From Planotetraspora kaengkrachanensis (GTDB lineage Bacteria > Actinomycetota > Actinomycetes > Streptosporangiales > Streptosporangiaceae): a stretch of 64,000 nucleotides of DNA. Of this stretch, positions 36,638 to 47,212 are shown piece after piece. Made by a program: the position numbers and the translations under genes. Every line of letters begins with the position of its first letter. Position 1 is the stretch's first letter. Below the pieces are notes generated by a model that worked only from the letters and a program-made list of their open reading frames with translations, was not told the DNA's origin and searched no databases. The stretch is from contig NZ_BONV01000002.1 of assembly GCF_016862895.1 (NCBI RefSeq), positions 1-64,000 on the forward strand, read 5' to 3'.

Positions 36638-39256
36638 TCAGGCCTCCGGGTTCTCGTACGTGACCGTGAGCGTCCCCTCCGACAGGCCGACGCGGATGAC
36701 CGCGCCGTCGAGGACGTCGCCTGCGACCAGGGCGCGGGCGATGCGGGTCTCGACCTCCCTGGCGATGAAGCGGCGCAGCGGGCGGGCGCCGTAGACCGGG
36801 TCGAAGCCCCGCTCGGCGATGTGCCGGACCGCCTCGGGGCTGACCTCCAGCGTCATCCTGCGGTCGGCGAGACGTGACCTCACGTCCGTGAACATCAGCC
36901 AAACGATCTGTTCGACCTCCGCCTCGGTCAGCGGCTTGAACAGGACGATCTCGTCGATCCGGTTGAGGAACTCGGGACGGAACCTGGCGCGCAGCTCGGC
37001 CATGACCATCTCGCGCACCTCGGGGTCGATCTCGCCCGCCGGCGCGGCCTTCTCGCTCAGGTAGTGCGAGCCGATGTTGGACGTCATGATGATCACGGTG
37101 TTGCGGAAGTCGACCGTGCGGCCCTGTGCGTCGGTGAGCCTTCCGTCGTCGAGCACCTGCAGCAGAGTGTTGAAGACGTCCGCGTGCGCCTTCTCGATCT
37201 CGTCGAAGAGCACCACCGAGTACGGCTTGCGCCGCACTGCCTCGGTGAGCTGGCCGCCCTCCTCGTATCCGACATATCCGGGTGGTGCGCCGACCAGCCG
37301 GCTGACGGTGTGCCGTTCCTGGTACTCGCTCATGTCGACGCGGACCATGTTGTCCTCGGTGTCGAACAGCGCCTCCGCGAGCGCCCTGGCCAGTTCGGTC
37401 TTCCCGACACCCGTCGGGCCGAGGAAGATGAACGAGCCGATGGGCCGGCGTGGATCCTTGATGCCGGAGCGCGCCCGGATGACGGCGTCCGCGACCGCCT
37501 GCACGGCCTCGTCCTGGCCGATCACCCGCTCGTGCAGGATCTGGTCGAGCCGCAGCAGCTTGTCCCGCTCGCCCTCCTGGAGCCGCTGGACCGGGATGCC
37601 CGTCCAGCGGGACACGATGCCCGCGATCTCCTCCTCGGTCACCACCTCGCGCAGCAGCCGGCGCCCGCCCTGCTTCGACTCCAACTGCTCCTCGGCCGCG
37701 GCGAGTTTGCGCTCCAGCTCGGGAAGCCTGCCGTGCATCAGTTCGGCGGCCCGGTTCAGGTCGTACGTCCGCTCGGCCTGGTCCGCCTCCCGCCGCACGT
37801 TCTCGATCTCCTCGCGCAGTTGCTGCACCTTGTGCAGAGCGTGCCGTTCGGCCTCCCACTGCGCGCGCATGGCGTCGGCCTGGGCGCGCAGGTCGGCCAG
37901 TTCGCCGCGCAGGGCCTCAAGGCGGTCCTTGCTCGCCGCGTCGTCCTCCTTGGCCAGCGCCGCCTCCTCGATCTCCAGGCGCATCACCACGCGGGTGAGC
38001 TCGTCCAGCTCGGCGGGCATGGAGTCGATCTCCGTACGGAGCATCGCGCACGCCTCGTCGACCAGGTCGATGGCCTTGTCCGGGAGGAATCGGTCGGAGA
38101 TGTAGCGGTGGCTCAGCACGACCGCCGCGACGACGGCGCTGTCGGTGATCTTCACGCCGTGGAACACCTCAAGGCGCTCGCGCAGGCCGCGCAGGATGGA
38201 GATCGAGTCCTCCATGGACGGCTCGTCCACGAAGACCGGCTGGAGACGGCGCTCCAGCGCCGCGTCCTTCTCGATGTGCTTGCGATACTCCGTGATCGTC
38301 GTCGCCCCGATCATGTGCAGCTCACCGCGGGCCAGCATCGGCTTGAGCATGTTCCCCGCGTCCATGGCGCCCTCGGCGGCGCCGGCGCCCACCACGGTGT
38401 GGACCTCGTCGACGAACAGCAGGATCCGGCCCTGCGACGCCGTCACCTCCGTGAGCACGGCCTTGAGGCGCTCCTCGAACTCGCCTCGGTACTTCGCCCC
38501 CGCGACGAGAGCCCCCATGTCGAGACTGAAGATCGTCTTGTCCTTCAGCCCCTCGGGCACGTCGCCGCGGGCGATGCGCTGGGCGAGCCCCTCCACGATC
38601 GCGGTCTTGCCGACGCCCGGGTCGCCGATGAGCACCGGGTTGTTCTTCGTCTTGCGGGACAGGATCTGCACGACCCTGCGGATCTCGCCGTCCCGGCCGA
38701 TGACCGGGTCCAGCTTGTCGGCCCTCGCCGCGGCGACCAGGTCGCGGCCGTACTTCTCCAGGGCCTCGTAGGCGACCTCCGGCATGGCGGAGGTGACCCG
38801 CTGGTTGCCGCGCACCCGGGTGAGGACCTCGAGGAAACGCTCACGGTTCAGCCCGTGCGCCTGCAGCAGCCGCCCGGCGGCGCTGTCGGTTCCCTCGTCG
38901 AGCAAAGCCAGCAACAGGTGCTCGACGGAGACGTACTCGTCCTTCAGCCGTCGCGCCTCCCGGTCGGCCGCGTCGAGCAGCCGGGACACGCGCTGGGTGA
39001 GATAGACCTGGCCGGGGGCCGCGCCGGGACCGGTGACCCGGGGCCGCCGCTCCAGTTCCGCCTCGAGCTCCAGCCGCAGCTTGTCCGCGTCCGCGCCCGC
39101 GGCGGACAGGAGCCGGGGAACGAGTCCCTCGGGCTGCTCGAGCAGTGCCGACAGGAGATGCTCGCCGTCGACCTCCGTGTGCCCGTGGCGGATCCCCTTG
39201 GTCTGGGCGTCGTGCAGGGCCTCCTGCGACTTCTGGGTCAGACGGTTGACGTCCAC
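36638..39256 (-). CDS. clpB: ATP-dependent disaggregase ClpB
   Basis: An 872-residue Hsp100 protein that, with DnaK/DnaJ/GrpE, recovers protein from aggregates. It has the N-domain (Clp repeats, about residues 1-145), AAA+ domain 1 with Walker A GDPGVGKT, the coiled-coil middle domain (about 395-525, rich in Glu/Arg/Leu), and AAA+ domain 2 with GPTGVGKT, ending in the ClpB-type C-domain. GTG at 39256 has GGGAGG six bases before it and overlaps the cbpM 3' end by 19 bases. Last chaperone gene of the operon. Confidence 0.95.
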
Positions 39257-39558
39257 GATCGACCTCCCGTCGTGCCGGATCGGATGCGCAGCTCCGTCTC
39301 GAGTTCCGCGATGCGATCGAGCAGGTCCGTCACCAGGCCGAGTGAGGCGTAGTTGACGGCCAGCCCCGCGTGCAGGCGCTGCAACCGGCCCGCCGCGGCG
39401 AGCTGGGAGAGCGGGAAGCACAGGTCGCCGCCCGTGTCCGGGGTGGCGTCGATCAGGCCGAGGGCCACCAGGCGGCGCACCAGTTCGGGATGCAGACCCG
39501 TGGCCCGCGCGAACGACTCGAGGTGCAGATGCGGCGACCGTGCAAGGAACCGACTCAT
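39238..39558 (-). CDS. cbpM: chaperone modulator CbpM (MerR-like)
   Basis: A 106-residue MerR_2/CbpM-type protein with an N-terminal winged HTH-like fold ([24 protein letters not shown]) and a C-terminal coiled segment ([14 protein letters not shown]). In other bacteria CbpM binds the J-domain of CbpA and inhibits it. The alternative, a DNA-binding HspR-like repressor, is less likely because of its length and the lack of an HspR basic tail. Its start overlaps the dnaJ stop (ATGA). Confidence 0.8.
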
Positions 39559-40538
39559 GATCGCGTCCTCCCTCCGGATCGCGGGGCGAAGGCCGAGACT
39601 CCCGCCAGCTGTTCGTAGAGGCGGCGCTCCTCGTCGGTCAGCGTGGGCGGGACCATGATCCGGGCCTCGGCGAGCAGGTCGCCCGGCCGGCCGCGCGGGT
39701 CGGGCATGCCCTGGCCGCGCAGGCGCAGGCGCCGTCCGGAGGAGGTGCCCGGGGGTATCTTGACCTTCGCCTCCCCGCCGGGGGTCTCGACCGCGACGGT
39801 CGCCCCCAGCGCGGCCTCCGAGGGGGTGAGCGGCAGCTTGACGTGGATGTCGCGCCCCTCGAGGCGGTAGCGGGGGTGGCCGGCGATCCGCGCGATGAGA
39901 TAGAGGTCGCCCGGCTGCGCGCCTTCGCCGCCCTCGCCGCCCTGCCCCGCGAGCCTGATCCGCTGTCCGTCGGTGACGCCCGCGGGGATGTCGACCTTCA
40001 GCGTGCGCGTCCTGCCGCGGCTGGGAAGGGTGATGGCGCGCCTGCCGCCGCGGTAGGCCTCCTCGACCGTCAGCGGCAGCTCGGCCTCCTGGTCGGCGCC
40101 GGGGACCGGCCCCCAGCCCCGCCCGGCGGCCCTCCCGCGCCGTCCGCGGCCGCCGAACATCTCCCCCAGCAGGTCGTCGAGGTCGATGCCCTCTCCGGTG
40201 GCGAACCGGATGTCCTCCCCCGCGGGGCCGCGCGCCCATCCGGCCCCCGGTCCTGCTCCGGCGCGCGCGCCTTCACGGGCCCTGGCGTACGCCGCGGGAT
40301 CCACCCCCTCGGGCACCTGCCGGAAGTCCCGGCCGAAGGCGTCGTAGCGCCGGCGCGTCTCGGGATCGGACAGCACCTCGTACGCTTCCGACACCTCCTT
40401 GAAGCGATCCTCCGCCCCTGGGTCCTTGTTGACGTCGGGATGGTAGGAACGCGCGAGCTTGCGGTAGGCCCGCTGGATCTCCTCCCGGTCCGCGGTTCTC
40501 GGCACCCCGAGGATCTCGTAGAAGTCCTGGGCGGCCAT
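39555..40538 (-). CDS. dnaJ: DnaJ/CbpA-type co-chaperone without zinc finger
   Basis: A 327-residue J-protein. The N-terminal J-domain has HPD (SYHPDVNKD), then a Gly/Phe/Ala-rich linker, then two C-terminal beta domains; the CxxCxGxG zinc repeats of classical DnaJ are missing, so it is a CbpA-type (class II) protein. It stimulates the DnaK ATPase and presents substrate. Its ATG overlaps the grpE stop by one base, and its stop overlaps the cbpM start. Confidence 0.92.
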
Positions 40539-41191
40539 CAGTCCTCCGCTTTGGTGGACACGACGACCGATGCGGGCCGGAGCTGGTCCGGGCCGTCGCC
40601 GTAGCCGGGCCGTACGACGGCGACCACGGTGCCCGGCTCGGCCTCGGGGTCCTCGGCCGTGCTCACGGCCTCGTGCCTGGCTGGATCGAAACGGGCGCCG
40701 AGGTCGTCGATGCGTGGGAAGCCCAGACGGGTGAGCAGGGCCACCGCCTGGTCCCGGACGGCGCGGACCCCCTCGACGACCGCCTCGGCGCCGGCGTCCG
40801 CATGCTTGAGCGCCAGCTCAAGGTTGTCGACGATCGGCAGCCATTCCGCCGCGACCCTGGCACGTTCGTCGAGCCGTTGCCTGGCGACGTCCCTGACCGT
40901 TCGCTTCCGCAGGTTGTCCAGCTCCGCGACCGCCCGTAGCCAGCGGTCGTGCAGCTCCGCGGCCTTCTCCGCGGCCTTCTCCGCGGCCTTCTCCGCGGCC
41001 TTCTCCGTGGCCCCGGTCTCCTCGGGCGTCACCGTCTCCGTCTCCGGCTCCGGTGACTCGGCGGCCACCGGGACCTCGGGAGCCGATTCTGCGACGCGCT
41101 CGGCGGCCGCCTCCTCCGTGATGCGGTCGGCGGCCTCGGCCTCCTCCGGGTGCCTGTGCTCAGGGAACTCGTTCTCGACCATGTCGGGCAC
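40538..41191 (-). CDS. grpE: nucleotide exchange factor GrpE
   Basis: A 217-residue GrpE, the ADP/ATP exchange factor of DnaK. A long acidic N-terminus leads into an (AAEK) repeat helix, then the dimeric coiled coil (LHDRWLRAVAELDNLRKRT) and the C-terminal beta domain (GTVVAVVRPGYG). The GTG at 41191 is three bases after the dnaK stop; ATG 41182 is equally possible, as neither has a strong ribosome site. Confidence 0.92.
   Translation of the reverse strand: MPDMVENEFPEHRHPEEAEAADRITEEAAAERVAESAPEVPVAAESPEPETETVTPEETGATEKAAEKAAEKAAEKAAELHDRWLRAVAELDNLRKRTVRDVARQRLDERARVAAEWLPIVDNLELALKHADAGAEAVVEGVRAVRDQAVALLTRLGFPRIDDLGARFDPARHEAVSTAEDPEAEPGTVVAVVRPGYGDGPDQLRPASVVVSTKAED
40957..41012 (-). 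repeat. 12-bp tandem repeat in grpE
   Basis: The unit GAGAAGGCCGCG (minus strand) occurs four times plus a part, coding AEKA repeats that lengthen the GrpE helix. Such in-frame repeats can change copy number without breaking the frame. Confidence 0.8.
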
Positions 41192-41194
41192 CCG

Positions 41195-43078
<1,884 letters not shown>

Positions 43079-43485
43079 CTCTCCACCCCCTGACGATCCA
43101 CATCAGGACGATCCGCATCAGGCCTCCCGCGGGCCTCGGCGGCGAGTTCCGGAGCGACCAGGACGTGGTCGCCGCCGGCGGCGACGTGCCCGGCGGGGAG
43201 GCCGGGCCGAGAAACGTGGGCCGCCGCCCGTGGTCACCGGGCTGGATCCCTGATTCCATCGGCCACGGCTCGAAACGGCGACGACCGGACCTCGGACCCT
43301 TCAACAACCAGCCAAACCGCGGGCGCGTATCCCCGAAACCCTCAAACAGCCATGTTTGGATCAAACTCCGAAGATCGTCGGCCGTCTCCCCCGCGCCGGC
43401 CGGGGAGCCCCTGGATCCGGTGCCTCACGATCCCGGCGGCTGCGTCGTCATCTCCTGCAGCAGACCCCCGAAGGAGACAGACACC
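43079..43485. other. divergent intergenic region between dnaK and lipocalin-like gene
   Basis: This 407-base gap has no convincing gene. It holds a 15-bp direct repeat (GATCCACATCAGGAC and GATCCGCATCAGGCC, 43094-43123) and one inverted repeat at 43343. No HAIR element (CTTGAGT and ACTCAAG) for HspR and no CIRCE element was seen. Confidence 0.5.
43343..43358. promoter_or_regulatory. inverted repeat in the dnaK/lipocalin gap
   Basis: CAAACA and TGTTTG are separated by four bases (GCCA), in an AT-richer patch. Candidate operator for either flanking gene. Confidence 0.4.
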
Positions 43486-44592
43486 ATGACCCAGCAGGCG
43501 AGCATCGCCCGTACCGACGCGGACTACCGGCGCATCGGCATCCGCCCCGACCTCGTCGCGGAGTGGGAGGACGGCGCCCGCACCGACGGGCGCCGGGGCA
43601 CCTACGAGTGGTGGTACTTCGACGCCCACCTCGACGACGGTGCCTCACTCGTCGTCATCTTCATGACCAAGGACCTGTCCACGCCGGGCAAGCCGCTGAG
43701 CCCGGTGATCCGGCTGAACCTCGACCTGCCGGACGGCCGCAGGTTCAACATCATCCAGGACTTCCCCGCGGCGTCGTTCTCGGCCCGGACCGACCGCGCC
43801 GACGTCCGGATCGACGGCAACGTCTTCTCCGGCGACCTCGCTCACTACGAGATCCGGGCCGACGTCGGCGGCGTGCGGGTCGACGTCACCCTCGACGCCG
43901 AGATCCGGCCGTGGCGCCCGCACACCGGCTACCTGCTCTTCGGGGACGAGCGCGATCTCGAGTTCTCGTGGCTCCCCGCCGTCCCCCAGGGGACGGTGCG
44001 CGGCTCCTACGAGGTCGCCGGCGTGCGCACCGAGGTGAGCGGCGTCGGCTACCACGACCACAACTGGGGCAATGTGGGGATGATGGCGATCATCCACGAC
44101 TGGTACTGGGCCCGCGGCCAGGCCGGCCCCTATTCGGTGATCGCCTCGTACATCACCGCCCACGAGAAGTACGGCTACGAGCCGATCCCGATCTTCATGC
44201 TCGCCCGCGACGGCCACGTCGTCGCCGACGACGCGTCGCGGGTGCGCTTCGAGGCGCTCGACGCCTACATCGACGGGAAGACCGGCAAGCCCGTGGCCCG
44301 TACCACCCGGTATCTCCACGACGACGGCGACGACTGCTACGTCGTCACCTTCACGAAGCACCGCGACCTTGTCGCCAACACCTTCGTCGAGCAGATGAAG
44401 GGCTGGCGCAAGGTCGCCGCGCGGCTGATCGGCGTCGACGGCGCCTACCTCCGCTTCACCGGCGACCTCACGATCGAGCGCCGCAAGGACGGCGAGACCG
44501 TCGAGACGTTCACCGAGGAGGCCATCTGGGAGCTGATGTACTTCGGCCGCGCCCGCACCGAGTCGCTCACGCGATCGGGTGCCGCGAGCTGA
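43486..44592 (+). CDS. CrtC/AttH lipocalin-like protein
   Basis: A 368-residue protein with the two-lipocalin-barrel architecture of the AttH/CrtC (hydroxyneurosporene synthase) superfamily. Key blocks are TYEWWYFDAHLDDG near the N-terminus, GVGYHDHNWGNV and the following WYWARGQAGPYSV. CrtC hydrates carotenoids, but most actinobacterial members are uncharacterised and no carotenoid gene is nearby. ATG 43486 has AAGGAG with 9-base spacing. No signal peptide. Confidence 0.78.
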   Translation: MTQQASIARTDADYRRIGIRPDLVAEWEDGARTDGRRGTYEWWYFDAHLDDGASLVVIFMTKDLSTPGKPLSPVIRLNLDLPDGRRFNIIQDFPAASFSARTDRADVRIDGNVFSGDLAHYEIRADVGGVRVDVTLDAEIRPWRPHTGYLLFGDERDLEFSWLPAVPQGTVRGSYEVAGVRTEVSGVGYHDHNWGNVGMMAIIHDWYWARGQAGPYSVIASYITAHEKYGYEPIPIFMLARDGHVVADDASRVRFEALDAYIDGKTGKPVARTTRYLHDDGDDCYVVTFTKHRDLVANTFVEQMKGWRKVAARLIGVDGAYLRFTGDLTIERRKDGETVETFTEEAIWELMYFGRARTESLTRSGAAS

Positions 44593-44609: not shown

Positions 44610-44640
44610 GAGTGGCCTGCGCGCAGAGGGCAGGCCACTC
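44610..44640. terminator. bidirectional terminator
   Basis: GAGTGGCCTGC and GCAGGCCACTC form a perfect 11-bp stem with a 9-base loop between two convergent genes. It reaches the last codon of the NDH-2-like gene. Confidence 0.75.
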
Positions 44641-45730
44641 ACGCCACATGCAGCGGCTGCTCCGGGGTCCGGACCAGATCCGCGACGGAGTCGTGGATCC
44701 TGTGCTGGTACGGCAGGCGTGAGCCGTACCCGAGGGAGGCCGCGACGTTGCCGCCGGCCAGCCTCCCCTGGCGCAGGGCATGCCGGCCGCTCATCGGAGT
44801 GATCTTGCCGGGCCTGGTGGGGTCGGGGACGGCGGCCACGTCGCCGCAGGCGTGGATCTCGGGATGGCCGGGCACGGCGAGGTGCTCGTCCACCCTGATC
44901 CTGCCCTGCTCGGCGGCCAGCCCCAGGTCGGTCACGAGCGGGTCGGGGCGGACCCCGAAGCTCCACACGATCGTGCGGGTGGCGACGAACTCGCCGTCGG
45001 TGAGCCGCAGTCCCCGGGAGGTGACCTGGCCGAGCGAGGTCCGCGTCCGGACCTCCACTCCCCGCGACCGCAACATGCGCGCCGTGATCCTGGACAGGCG
45101 GTGCCGCATGTCGGGCAGCAGCCGCTCGGCGGGATCGGCCAGGATCCAGCGGATCGGCTGATCGCGCAGCCGCGGGTCGCGGCAGGCGATCGACCGGGAC
45201 AGCGCCTGCCCGGCGGAGGCAGCCGCCGTACCCGCGTATCCCGCGCCGAGCACGACGAACGTGCAGCGTGCCGCGCGTTCGAACGGGTCGGTGCTCGCGG
45301 CGGCCAGGGAGAGCTGCCGGTGGATGTGATCGCGCAGTTGGAGGGCCTGGCCGACGTTGTGAAAGCCGACGCTGTGCGCCGAGACCGCGGAGACCTGGGC
45401 GACCTCGCTCACGCCTCCCGCCGCGACGATCAGCCGGTCGTATGCCAGCACACCGCCGTCGTAGAGCACCCGCCGGGCCTGGGCGTCGATGTGGGTGACC
45501 GTGCCCAGGACCACCCGCACGCCCGGCAGCGTCCCGGCCAGCGGCACGCTCACCCGATCCGGGCTGAGCGCGCCCGTCATCACCTGCGGGAGCAACTCGG
45601 GACGCAGCGCGACACCGGTCGGGTTGACCAGCACGATCTCCGCGCCGTCTCCCACCCGCCGCGAAAGGGTGCGGGCCGCCTGGTAGCCGGCGACCCCGGC
45701 TCCGACGATCACCACCTGTGGCCTTGTCAC
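44639..45730 (-). CDS. NDH-2-like NAD(P)H dehydrogenase, short at the C-terminus
   Basis: A 363-residue flavoprotein of the type II NADH dehydrogenase family. FAD motif VVIVGAGVAGYQAAR, the RPELLPQVMTGAL segment near the flavin, the second dinucleotide motif VVLGAGYAGTAAA and the ACGDVAAV motif are all present. Family members usually run to about 420-460 residues, ending in a hydrophobic membrane-binding part; here the protein stops at PLHVA, right at a terminator hairpin. GTG 45730 has GGGGAG six bases upstream, two bases after the cytochrome b stop. See finding. Confidence 0.82.
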   Translation of the reverse strand: MTRPQVVIVGAGVAGYQAARTLSRRVGDGAEIVLVNPTGVALRPELLPQVMTGALSPDRVSVPLAGTLPGVRVVLGTVTHIDAQARRVLYDGGVLAYDRLIVAAGGVSEVAQVSAVSAHSVGFHNVGQALQLRDHIHRQLSLAAASTDPFERAARCTFVVLGAGYAGTAAASAGQALSRSIACRDPRLRDQPIRWILADPAERLLPDMRHRLSRITARMLRSRGVEVRTRTSLGQVTSRGLRLTDGEFVATRTIVWSFGVRPDPLVTDLGLAAEQGRIRVDEHLAVPGHPEIHACGDVAAVPDPTRPGKITPMSGRHALRQGRLAGGNVAASLGYGSRLPYQHRIHDSVADLVRTPEQPLHVA

Positions 45731-45732
45731 CG

Positions 45733-47148
45733 TCATCTCCCCGACGTGATCGCCGGCTCCTGGCTCTCCCGCCGCGCCGGAGCCAGTCGCTCGTGGTATC
45801 CGCCGTCCGGGGACCGCGTGATGATCCCGGTCTCCACCCCGTGCTCGGCCACCTCGTGATCCGTCTGCTGGAGTGCGACGCAGATCCACCGGGTGACGAA
45901 GAAGGCGATGACGGGGCCGATGACCACGGCGAACCTGAAGAAGACCGTCACGGCCTCGACGGAGAGGCGGAACTGGACGGCGATCTGGTCGTTCGCCGCG
46001 GCCGACCACAGCAGGCCGTAGAACGTGACGCCGGCCACCGCGATGGCCGTCTTCACCGGCGACTCGTGTGGCCGATCGAGCACGTCGTGCGTGAACGTTT
46101 CGTGGGCGATGCGGCCCGTGGTCTTGGGCCGGCCCAGTGCGTCCCGGCGGCCGCGTCGCGAGAGGAGAAAGTGCTCGGCCATCGGGTAGGCGGCCAGGGC
46201 GGTGAAGAAGACGCCGGGGACGACCAGTGTGGGGAGGAGGACCGCGAGGCTGAGCGTGTGGTCCCCGATGGTGAGTTCCCACCCGGGCATGATCCGGAGG
46301 GCGCCGTCGAGGAATCCCATGTACCAGTCGGGAACCGATCCCGCCGAGATCTGCGTCGGCCGGGCAGGGCCGTACAGCCAGATGGGGGCGATCTGGAACC
46401 CGAACCCGAGGATGATCAGCATGCCGATCGTCACGAGCGCCATCGCCGGGCGCGCTCGCCGCCGGGACGGCACCGAGGAGGCGAACCGGGAGTGGCCGTG
46501 CCGCCGCACCAGCAGTTCACGGGCGATCAGCAGCGCGGCGATGACGACCGCGATCAGCAGGTGCCCCCCGTACATGACCGGAATGACCCTGTCACCGGGG
46601 AAGTCCGGGCCGAACAGCAGCGACTGCGCCCAGCCGCCCACCACGGGGATGGACCGCACGACCGACACGATCAGCCACAGGCTCCCGCCCGACATCAGGT
46701 CGTCGGGCAGCACGTTGCCGGTCTCGCCCGCGGCCATGCCCAGAGCCAGCAGCGTCACCCAGATCAGCCACTGCCTGGTGCGCGGGCGGCGGAACGCGCC
46801 GGTCAGGAACATGCGCAGCAACTGCAGAAGGACGGCCGCCACGAAGACGAGCGCCGCCCAGTGGTGGACCTGGCGGATGAGCAGGCCGCCGCGCACCTCC
46901 AGGCTCAGATGCATGGCCGAGTCGAACGCCCTGCTGACGAACAGTCCGCGCAGCAGGCCGTACGAGCCGTCATAGGTCACCTGGGACATGCCGGGGTCGT
47001 AGAACACCATCAGCGCCCCGCCGGTCACCAACAGGACGACGAACGACCAGATGGCGATTTCCGCGAACATGAACGACCAGTGGGAGAACTGAAACGAGCG
47101 GCGCTTGGCCGGTGTCGAACGCAATTGGGGCCCCCTAACCTTCCTCAC
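45733..47148 (-). CDS. cytochrome b (QcrB-like) lacking one heme ligand pair
   Basis: A 471-residue homologue of actinobacterial QcrB, the cytochrome b of the bc1 complex, with eight or nine membrane helices. The Qo-site motif PDWY (GSVPDWYMGF) is present. Of the four heme histidines, His95 and His196 remain, but the partners 14 residues later are Gln109 and Arg210. No qcrA or qcrC is adjacent; the next gene is an NDH-2-like flavoprotein. The frame begins at GTG 47148; TTG at 47124 has a much better ribosome site (AGGGGG, 6-base spacing) and may be the true start. Numbering is from 47148. Confidence 0.88.
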   Translation of the reverse strand: MRKVRGPQLRSTPAKRRSFQFSHWSFMFAEIAIWSFVVLLVTGGALMVFYDPGMSQVTYDGSYGLLRGLFVSRAFDSAMHLSLEVRGGLLIRQVHHWAALVFVAAVLLQLLRMFLTGAFRRPRTRQWLIWVTLLALGMAAGETGNVLPDDLMSGGSLWLIVSVVRSIPVVGGWAQSLLFGPDFPGDRVIPVMYGGHLLIAVVIAALLIARELLVRRHGHSRFASSVPSRRRARPAMALVTIGMLIILGFGFQIAPIWLYGPARPTQISAGSVPDWYMGFLDGALRIMPGWELTIGDHTLSLAVLLPTLVVPGVFFTALAAYPMAEHFLLSRRGRRDALGRPKTTGRIAHETFTHDVLDRPHESPVKTAIAVAGVTFYGLLWSAAANDQIAVQFRLSVEAVTVFFRFAVVIGPVIAFFVTRWICVALQQTDHEVAEHGVETGIITRSPDGGYHERLAPARRESQEPAITSGR

Positions 47149-47212
47149 TCACATGACGGAATCGGGCCGGGGACTGTGACGACGAATAGGGCGTCTGCGA
47201 CGGTGATTCCCG

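Follow-up and report, generated by a model that had tools for sequence, protein, structure and literature searches.

Stand-alone QcrB derivatives of actinobacteria with a dismantled heme bH site, a kept heme bL site and an ECF41-type promoter

Cytochrome bc complexes are defined by their pair of b hemes, placed across the membrane. Here, we describe a QcrB-like cytochrome b from Planotetraspora kaengkrachanensis in which the site of heme bH has been dismantled and the site of heme bL is kept. The gene lies in the window, by which we mean the whole analyzed stretch of 64,000 nucleotides. The loss of the site, the kept bL site, their conservation, purifying selection, the promoter motif and the gene pairing can be read directly from the sequences. 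We lean, somewhat beyond an even judgment, toward a conserved group of stand-alone, Rieske-free QcrB derivatives with an ECF41-type promoter, co-regulated with NDH-2-like flavoproteins and acting as stress-induced one-electron proteins of the menaquinone pool on the p-side.

The protein and its heme sites

In bovine numbering, H83 and H182 hold heme bL, and H97 and H196 hold heme bH. The features of the locus, all on the minus strand, are the following:

45733 to 47124, minus strand: stand-alone QcrB-like cytochrome b, both heme bH ligands gone (ORF and translation, Pfam, NF050120, PDB, fold, orthologous starts)
46864 to 46866, minus strand: His95 (CAC), heme bL ligand, bovine H83, kept (alignment and codon reading)
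46561 to 46563, minus strand: His196 (CAC), heme bL ligand, bovine H182, kept (alignment and codon reading)
46822 to 46824, minus strand: Gln109 (CAG) in place of a heme bH ligand, bovine H97 (alignment and codon reading)
46519 to 46521, minus strand: Arg210 (CGT) in place of a heme bH ligand, bovine H196 (alignment and codon reading)
46759 to 46761, minus strand: Trp130 in place of a bH packing glycine, bovine G116 (alignment)
47062 to 47064, minus strand: Ala29 in place of a bH packing glycine, bovine G34 (alignment)
46321 to 46332, minus strand: PDWY, Qo-site motif (alignment)
44639 to 45736, minus strand: NDH-2-like FAD/NAD(P)H flavoprotein, 365 aa, without the C-terminal membrane anchor of NDH-2 (Pyr_redox_2, PDB)
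47155 to 47181, minus strand: ECF41-type promoter CGTCACA-n16-CGTC (single match in the window, conservation, published consensus)

The protein has 463 aa when read from the TTG at 47124 and 471 aa from the GTG at 47148, and the TTG is probably the translation start. Orthologs carry ATG at this position, and the TTG is preferred because an in-frame TAG lies upstream of this ATG in two congeners. Furthermore, the GTG is disfavored since the transcription start expected behind the promoter would fall there.

The window ORF matches cytochrome b in Pfam, its best matches among solved structures are the QcrB of C. glutamicum and of mycobacteria (E 7e-100, PDB sequence search), and the structure model (pLDDT 78, pTM 0.80) displays the QcrB fold, with Z 40.8 to 9gy6_B over 426 aligned residues. 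By its cytochrome b fold and its similarity it is thus a QcrB. On the other side, it reaches 465.9 bits with the NCBIfam model NF050120 (QcrB), below the cut-off of 500, and possesses neither all four heme-binding histidines nor all four packing glycines (G34, G48, G116, G130), nor are Rieske (qcrA) and cytochrome c (qcrC) genes co-encoded. A second "QcrB-like" match of a regular expression in the window was discarded as a shadow ORF.

The original prediction had named H95 and H196 as kept and Q109 and R210 as replacing residues, and reading the letters confirms all four codons. In an alignment with the solved mycobacterial and corynebacterial QcrB, Q109 and R210 fall at the ligand positions of heme bH, so the lost ligands are indeed those of the Qi-side heme, and the bL pair as well as PDWY are present as had been claimed. 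Of the two H-x13-H pairs on which this claim was built, the one in helix D needs correction: actinobacterial QcrB has H-x14-H there, and the window protein carries a one-residue deletion. Nevertheless, the ligand assignment holds because relatives without this deletion carry Arg exactly in register at the ligand position, by which an alternative alignment with histidines at the ligand sites was also rejected. The bH site is altered more thoroughly than in its two ligands, since both bH packing glycines are replaced as well. Those of the bL site (bovine G48 and G130; G43 and G144 in the numbering of Ala29 and Trp130) are kept.

Conservation among relatives

A DNA pattern scan over 84,980 species yielded 87 loci in actinobacteria of several families, with the genera Nonomuraea, Planotetraspora, Streptosporangium, Actinomadura, Actinoallomurus, Agromyces, Leifsonia, Microbacterium, Microlunatus, Nocardioides and Actinoplanes. 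Together with similarity hits, these loci gave 107 aligned members, and relatives from Streptosporangiales as well as from Microbacteriaceae and Propionibacteriales have the altered bH site in common. The bL site (G48, R80, H83, G130, H182) is invariant in 107 of 107 members, and the bH site is changed in every one of them. Here, Arg occupies the H196 position in 105 members, and the G116 position is filled by Trp (67) or Leu (39), together 106 of the 107. The dismantled bH site and the invariant bL site support the reading as a one-heme protein.

Gln at the H97 position was part of the search pattern, so its count among the pattern-found members is biased, and its apparent invariance was rejected as a sampling effect. 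The similarity-based sample varies at this position. It comprises 33 members, picked out by Trp at G116, and all homologs in this sampling were either of this Trp-bearing kind or canonical. Trp is accordingly present in 33/33, Arg at H196 in 31/33, and the H97 position holds Gln in 24, His in 8 and Leu in one. Apart from the eight members that keep His97, which count against our main reading, this sample agrees with the larger alignment. The acid of the Qo site is replaced by Gly (PDWY to PGWY) in 15 of these 33 members, in the S-clade for example in L150, L178 and L180.

None of these bH changes occurs in the canonical or the stand-alone four-histidine QcrB that were compared. The common trait of the family is the loss of H196 together with a filled bH pocket, and the loss of H97 usually goes alongside, as in the window. 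Because this state is kept across more than 100 genomes, the altered bH site lies beyond chance. The Arg conserved in both clades would also fit a second cofactor or a quinone in the former bH pocket, bound via the Arg/Gln pair. We regard this as very improbable, since a porphyrin would presumably collide with the Trp or Leu at G116.

Selective constraint

As the other outcome, the original prediction had named a decaying paralog. Within the genus Planotetraspora, omega (Nei-Gojobori) is 0.385 for the one-heme cytochrome b gene, 0.31 for the flavoprotein gene and 0.106 for the canonical qcrB. The dN/dS of the one-heme gene is therefore about 3.6 times that of canonical qcrB, which by itself would speak for decay. 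However, a value of about 0.39 indicates purifying selection rather than neutral decay, so that this selection is real, yet weaker than on the respiratory copy. Furthermore, the reading frame is open in more than 100 orthologs, and the internal stops that had been reported for two congeners precede the actual start codon. Two clades show the same replacements, with an invariant bL site alongside a bH site packed with bulky residues. The relatives with intact ligands belong to other, sister lineages. Decay is refuted by the open frames, the dN/dS and the conserved replacement residues, and we leave it next to no probability.

Evolutionary origins

An initial tree, in which canonical outgroups were few, was compatible with a single origin. 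After the canonical QcrB of Microbacteriaceae were included, the Micrococcales-type clade groups with those canonical sequences and the Streptosporangiales-type clade (support 100/100) groups with a stand-alone four-histidine QcrB of its own order. Forcing the one-heme members into a single clade is 52 log-likelihood units worse (AU p = 0.018), by which a single origin was rejected. At least two independent origins of the bH loss are favored, with the long branches as a caution. Convergence would be easier because His to Gln and His to Arg require one base change each. A QcrB-like protein of Actinoplanes solisilvae (L083), in which H97 is Gln, H196 is Ser and Gly116 is kept and whose gene has an ECF41-type site upstream, may represent a third origin or an intermediate.

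The four-histidine sister L160 and its like are stand-alone themselves, and no Rieske gene was found in the 14–15 kb around L160 and similar four-histidine stand-alone QcrB genes. Since these sisters have no Rieske gene nearby, the Rieske partner was probably lost before heme bH.

Genome G195 has a tandem pair of four-histidine stand-alone QcrB genes that are separated by an ECF41-type site (L247), and the related four-histidine stand-alone QcrB L245 of genome G310 has an ECF41-type site, too. ECF41 control may predate the bH loss.

ECF41-type promoter

The consensus of ECF41 sigma factors is TGTCACA-n16-CGTC (PMC3426412). The window gene has a site of this type directly upstream, about 30 bases before the cytochrome b start, which is one base off the consensus, and many orthologs carry TGTCACA. 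The pattern YGTCACA-n16-YGTC matches once in the 64-kb window, with 0.23 matches expected. An ECF41-type site precedes 71 of 112 non-redundant one-heme loci (or the leading NDH-2 gene) in comparison to one of 39 four-histidine canonical QcrB genes (Fisher p 2.4e-12, a significance inflated by related sequences); the remaining 41 one-heme loci have no recognizable site. The site is present in both clades and in L083.

Throughout the genome of the window organism, 13 ECF41-type sites were found versus 3 for reversed controls. Apart from the cytochrome b gene, the genes behind such sites encode an ECF sigma factor with a SnoaL-like C-terminus, an epimerase, an alcohol dehydrogenase, a carboxymuconolactone decarboxylase and a second NDH-2-like flavoprotein; several others of the 13 sites resemble chance matches. 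Published targets are a carboxymuconolactone decarboxylase, an oxidoreductase or an epimerase, which were the only detectable target genes (PMC3426412), and because the target types match, the site set is a recognizable ECF41 regulon. This suggests that the one-heme cytochrome b gene is under the control of an ECF41-type sigma factor.

The second NDH-2-like flavoprotein (G000:C14:195119-196432; L147, L204) is 54% identical to that of the window, and about 80 bases ahead of its gene lies a separate ECF41-type site, TGTCACATTCCGGTCCGCCGAATCGTC.

Gene neighborhood

The ATG of the flavoprotein gene overlaps the stop codon of the cytochrome b gene (ATGA), i.e., both are translationally coupled. The flavoprotein matches the NDH-2 structures 4nwz/5kmq (E 9e-36) and contains the FAD and NAD(P)H domains; the C-terminal membrane-anchoring domain it lacks is present in the partners from Microbacteriaceae. 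A close ortholog was found in 16 genomes of the order, all of which also encode the cytochrome, and it is adjacent in 15. Neighbors were compared all-against-all at ORF level with a codon-position filter against the shadow ORFs of GC-rich DNA. In Planotetraspora and Nonomuraea the flavoprotein is coupled downstream of the cytochrome b, and in Leifsonia, Agromyces and Microlunatus a full-length NDH-2 lies upstream and overlaps the cytochrome start. At the Leifsonia locus, two further genes stand alongside, an NmrA-type gene and one for an ECF sigma factor with a SnoaL_2 domain. Most Streptosporangiales loci have no adjacent partner, the flavoprotein being adjacent at a minority only. The proposed link to the adjacent flavoprotein is therefore upheld by the coupling, by the same kind of partner in a second clade and by the ortholog that occurs only with the cytochrome; as an obligatory partnership it does not stand, and across the loci compared it is common. 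An upstream MFS gene was rejected as a partner, since it is not conserved.

Several further neighbors were observed. In Microlunatus, Leifsonia poae and L118, a fumarate-reductase/succinate-dehydrogenase-like flavoprotein is encoded in the vicinity of the one-heme gene, downstream in L050 (directly after it) and L096 and upstream in L118. In the window, a gene on the plus strand (43165–44592) for a lipocalin-like protein, probably CrtC-type as judged by eye, converges on the operon, and a homolog also lies near the one-heme cytochrome b of Microbacterium yannicii (L104). A dnaK-grpE-dnaJ-hspR-clpB heat-shock cluster (named by eye; 38003–43078, minus strand) adjoins the operon.

The original statement that no qcrA or qcrC is nearby was correct: neither a Rieske nor a multi-CxxCH cytochrome c gene was found in the window or in 785 kb around 114 loci. 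Two more QcrB copies are present in the own genome, and a Rieske gene accompanies one of them. These copies are in line with the main rival explanation, a mixed dimer with normal QcrB inside the bcc-aa3 supercomplex, in which one Q cycle would be disabled and bL electrons could cross to the bL of the partner. The invariant bL site fits such a dimer, the stand-alone QcrB3 of S. coelicolor co-purifies with the bcc-aa3 supercomplex and Nar1 (PMC7931247), and electrons do cross from bL to bL in engineered dimers in which one bH has been knocked out (PMC4330944). However, the gene is paired with NDH-2-like rather than qcr or cta genes, a sigma-type promoter of its own precedes it, the protein is 50–100 aa shorter than canonical QcrB, and the Qo acid is lost in almost half of the sampled members (15/33). 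Hence, we consider the mixed dimer unlikely, if clearly worth keeping in mind.

Proposed function

Our preferred reading is that of a stress-induced protein of the menaquinone pool. A single heme (bL), the sigma-factor control, the quinone chemistry and the electron path are predicted features of it. Stress would be sensed by ECF41, and the cytochrome b gene would share a transcript, or else a regulon, with NDH-2-like NAD(P)H dehydrogenases. Menaquinone would be reduced by the flavoprotein at the expense of NAD(P)H, with the one-heme cytochrome b serving as an outer (p-side) one-electron redox protein of the quinone pool. Without bH, no electron would return to the inner (n-side) face, and without a Rieske partner no Q cycle would run; with both missing, a Q cycle appears impossible. 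This is in line with an engineered bH knockout, in which the Qo and Qi sites are no longer connected (PMC4330944). Since the filled bH site leaves a cytosolic flavoprotein no obvious direct path to bL, the link between them would have to run via diffusing quinone. Quinol oxidation at a standard Qo site is not general, because the Qo acid is not kept throughout the sample.

A more specific version states that bH was removed from QcrB at least twice, each time under ECF41-type control and often beside an NDH-2-like gene, and that the product moves single electrons from menaquinol to an extracytoplasmic acceptor under stress. We put this forward tentatively.

Alternatively, the protein might be a heme-b sensor or a structural quinone-binding protein, whose bL senses the quinone or redox state or only stabilizes the fold, without turnover. 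The bL site as the one fully invariant feature, the dispensable Qo acid, the often solitary gene and the stress-type promoter ahead of it would agree with this. The coupled NAD(P)H dehydrogenases of two clades speak instead for electron transfer, which makes a sensor or structural role rather improbable to us.

Comparison with known systems

The stand-alone, menaquinone-linked protein proposed here resembles the QcrB of the actinobacterial bcc complexes (M. smegmatis, M. tuberculosis, C. glutamicum) in its fold (Z ~40, ~41% identity), the bL site, PDWY and the C-terminal domain. It differs in the missing bH ligands, the replaced bH glycines, the absence of qcrA and qcrC nearby, the shorter length and the ECF41-type promoter. 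Carried by some soil actinobacteria as an extra QcrB copy, it represents a conserved new variation on a textbook protein rather than a damaged one.

A search confined to open-access papers revealed no account of a naturally bH-less, one-heme or orphan cytochrome b. The literature on QcrB paralogs yielded S. coelicolor QcrB3 (SCO7236), which is likewise a stand-alone QcrB paralog (PMC7931247). In contrast to the window protein, it is 55% identical to canonical QcrB and has a size of ~61 kDa. Among QcrB copies other than SCO7236, nine extra or canonical ones from further actinobacterial genomes were examined, and all have the four histidines.

So far, bH knockouts of cytochrome b are known as engineered mutants. 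In the H212N mutant of R. capsulatus the loss of a bH ligand also leaves bL only (PMC4330944). However, this is a laboratory mutant of one ligand, whereas here both ligands and the packing glycines have been changed naturally and the change is conserved. A natural one-heme form, which seemingly evolved more than once, would reveal what the bL half can do alone.

The flavoprotein partner resembles NDH-2 in that it matches NDH-2 structures and that the Microbacteriaceae partners look full length. In contrast to NDH-2, the partner in the window has no C-terminal membrane anchor and an altered AQxAxQ-type motif (SGRHALRQ).

The ECF41 regulon shares the TGTCACA-n16-CGTC signature and, in Leifsonia, the adjacent ECF-SnoaL gene, but a cytochrome b is absent from its published targets (PMC3426412). 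The widespread ECF41 sigma factors, with small redox and decarboxylase genes as known targets, would thereby gain a membrane bioenergetic target.
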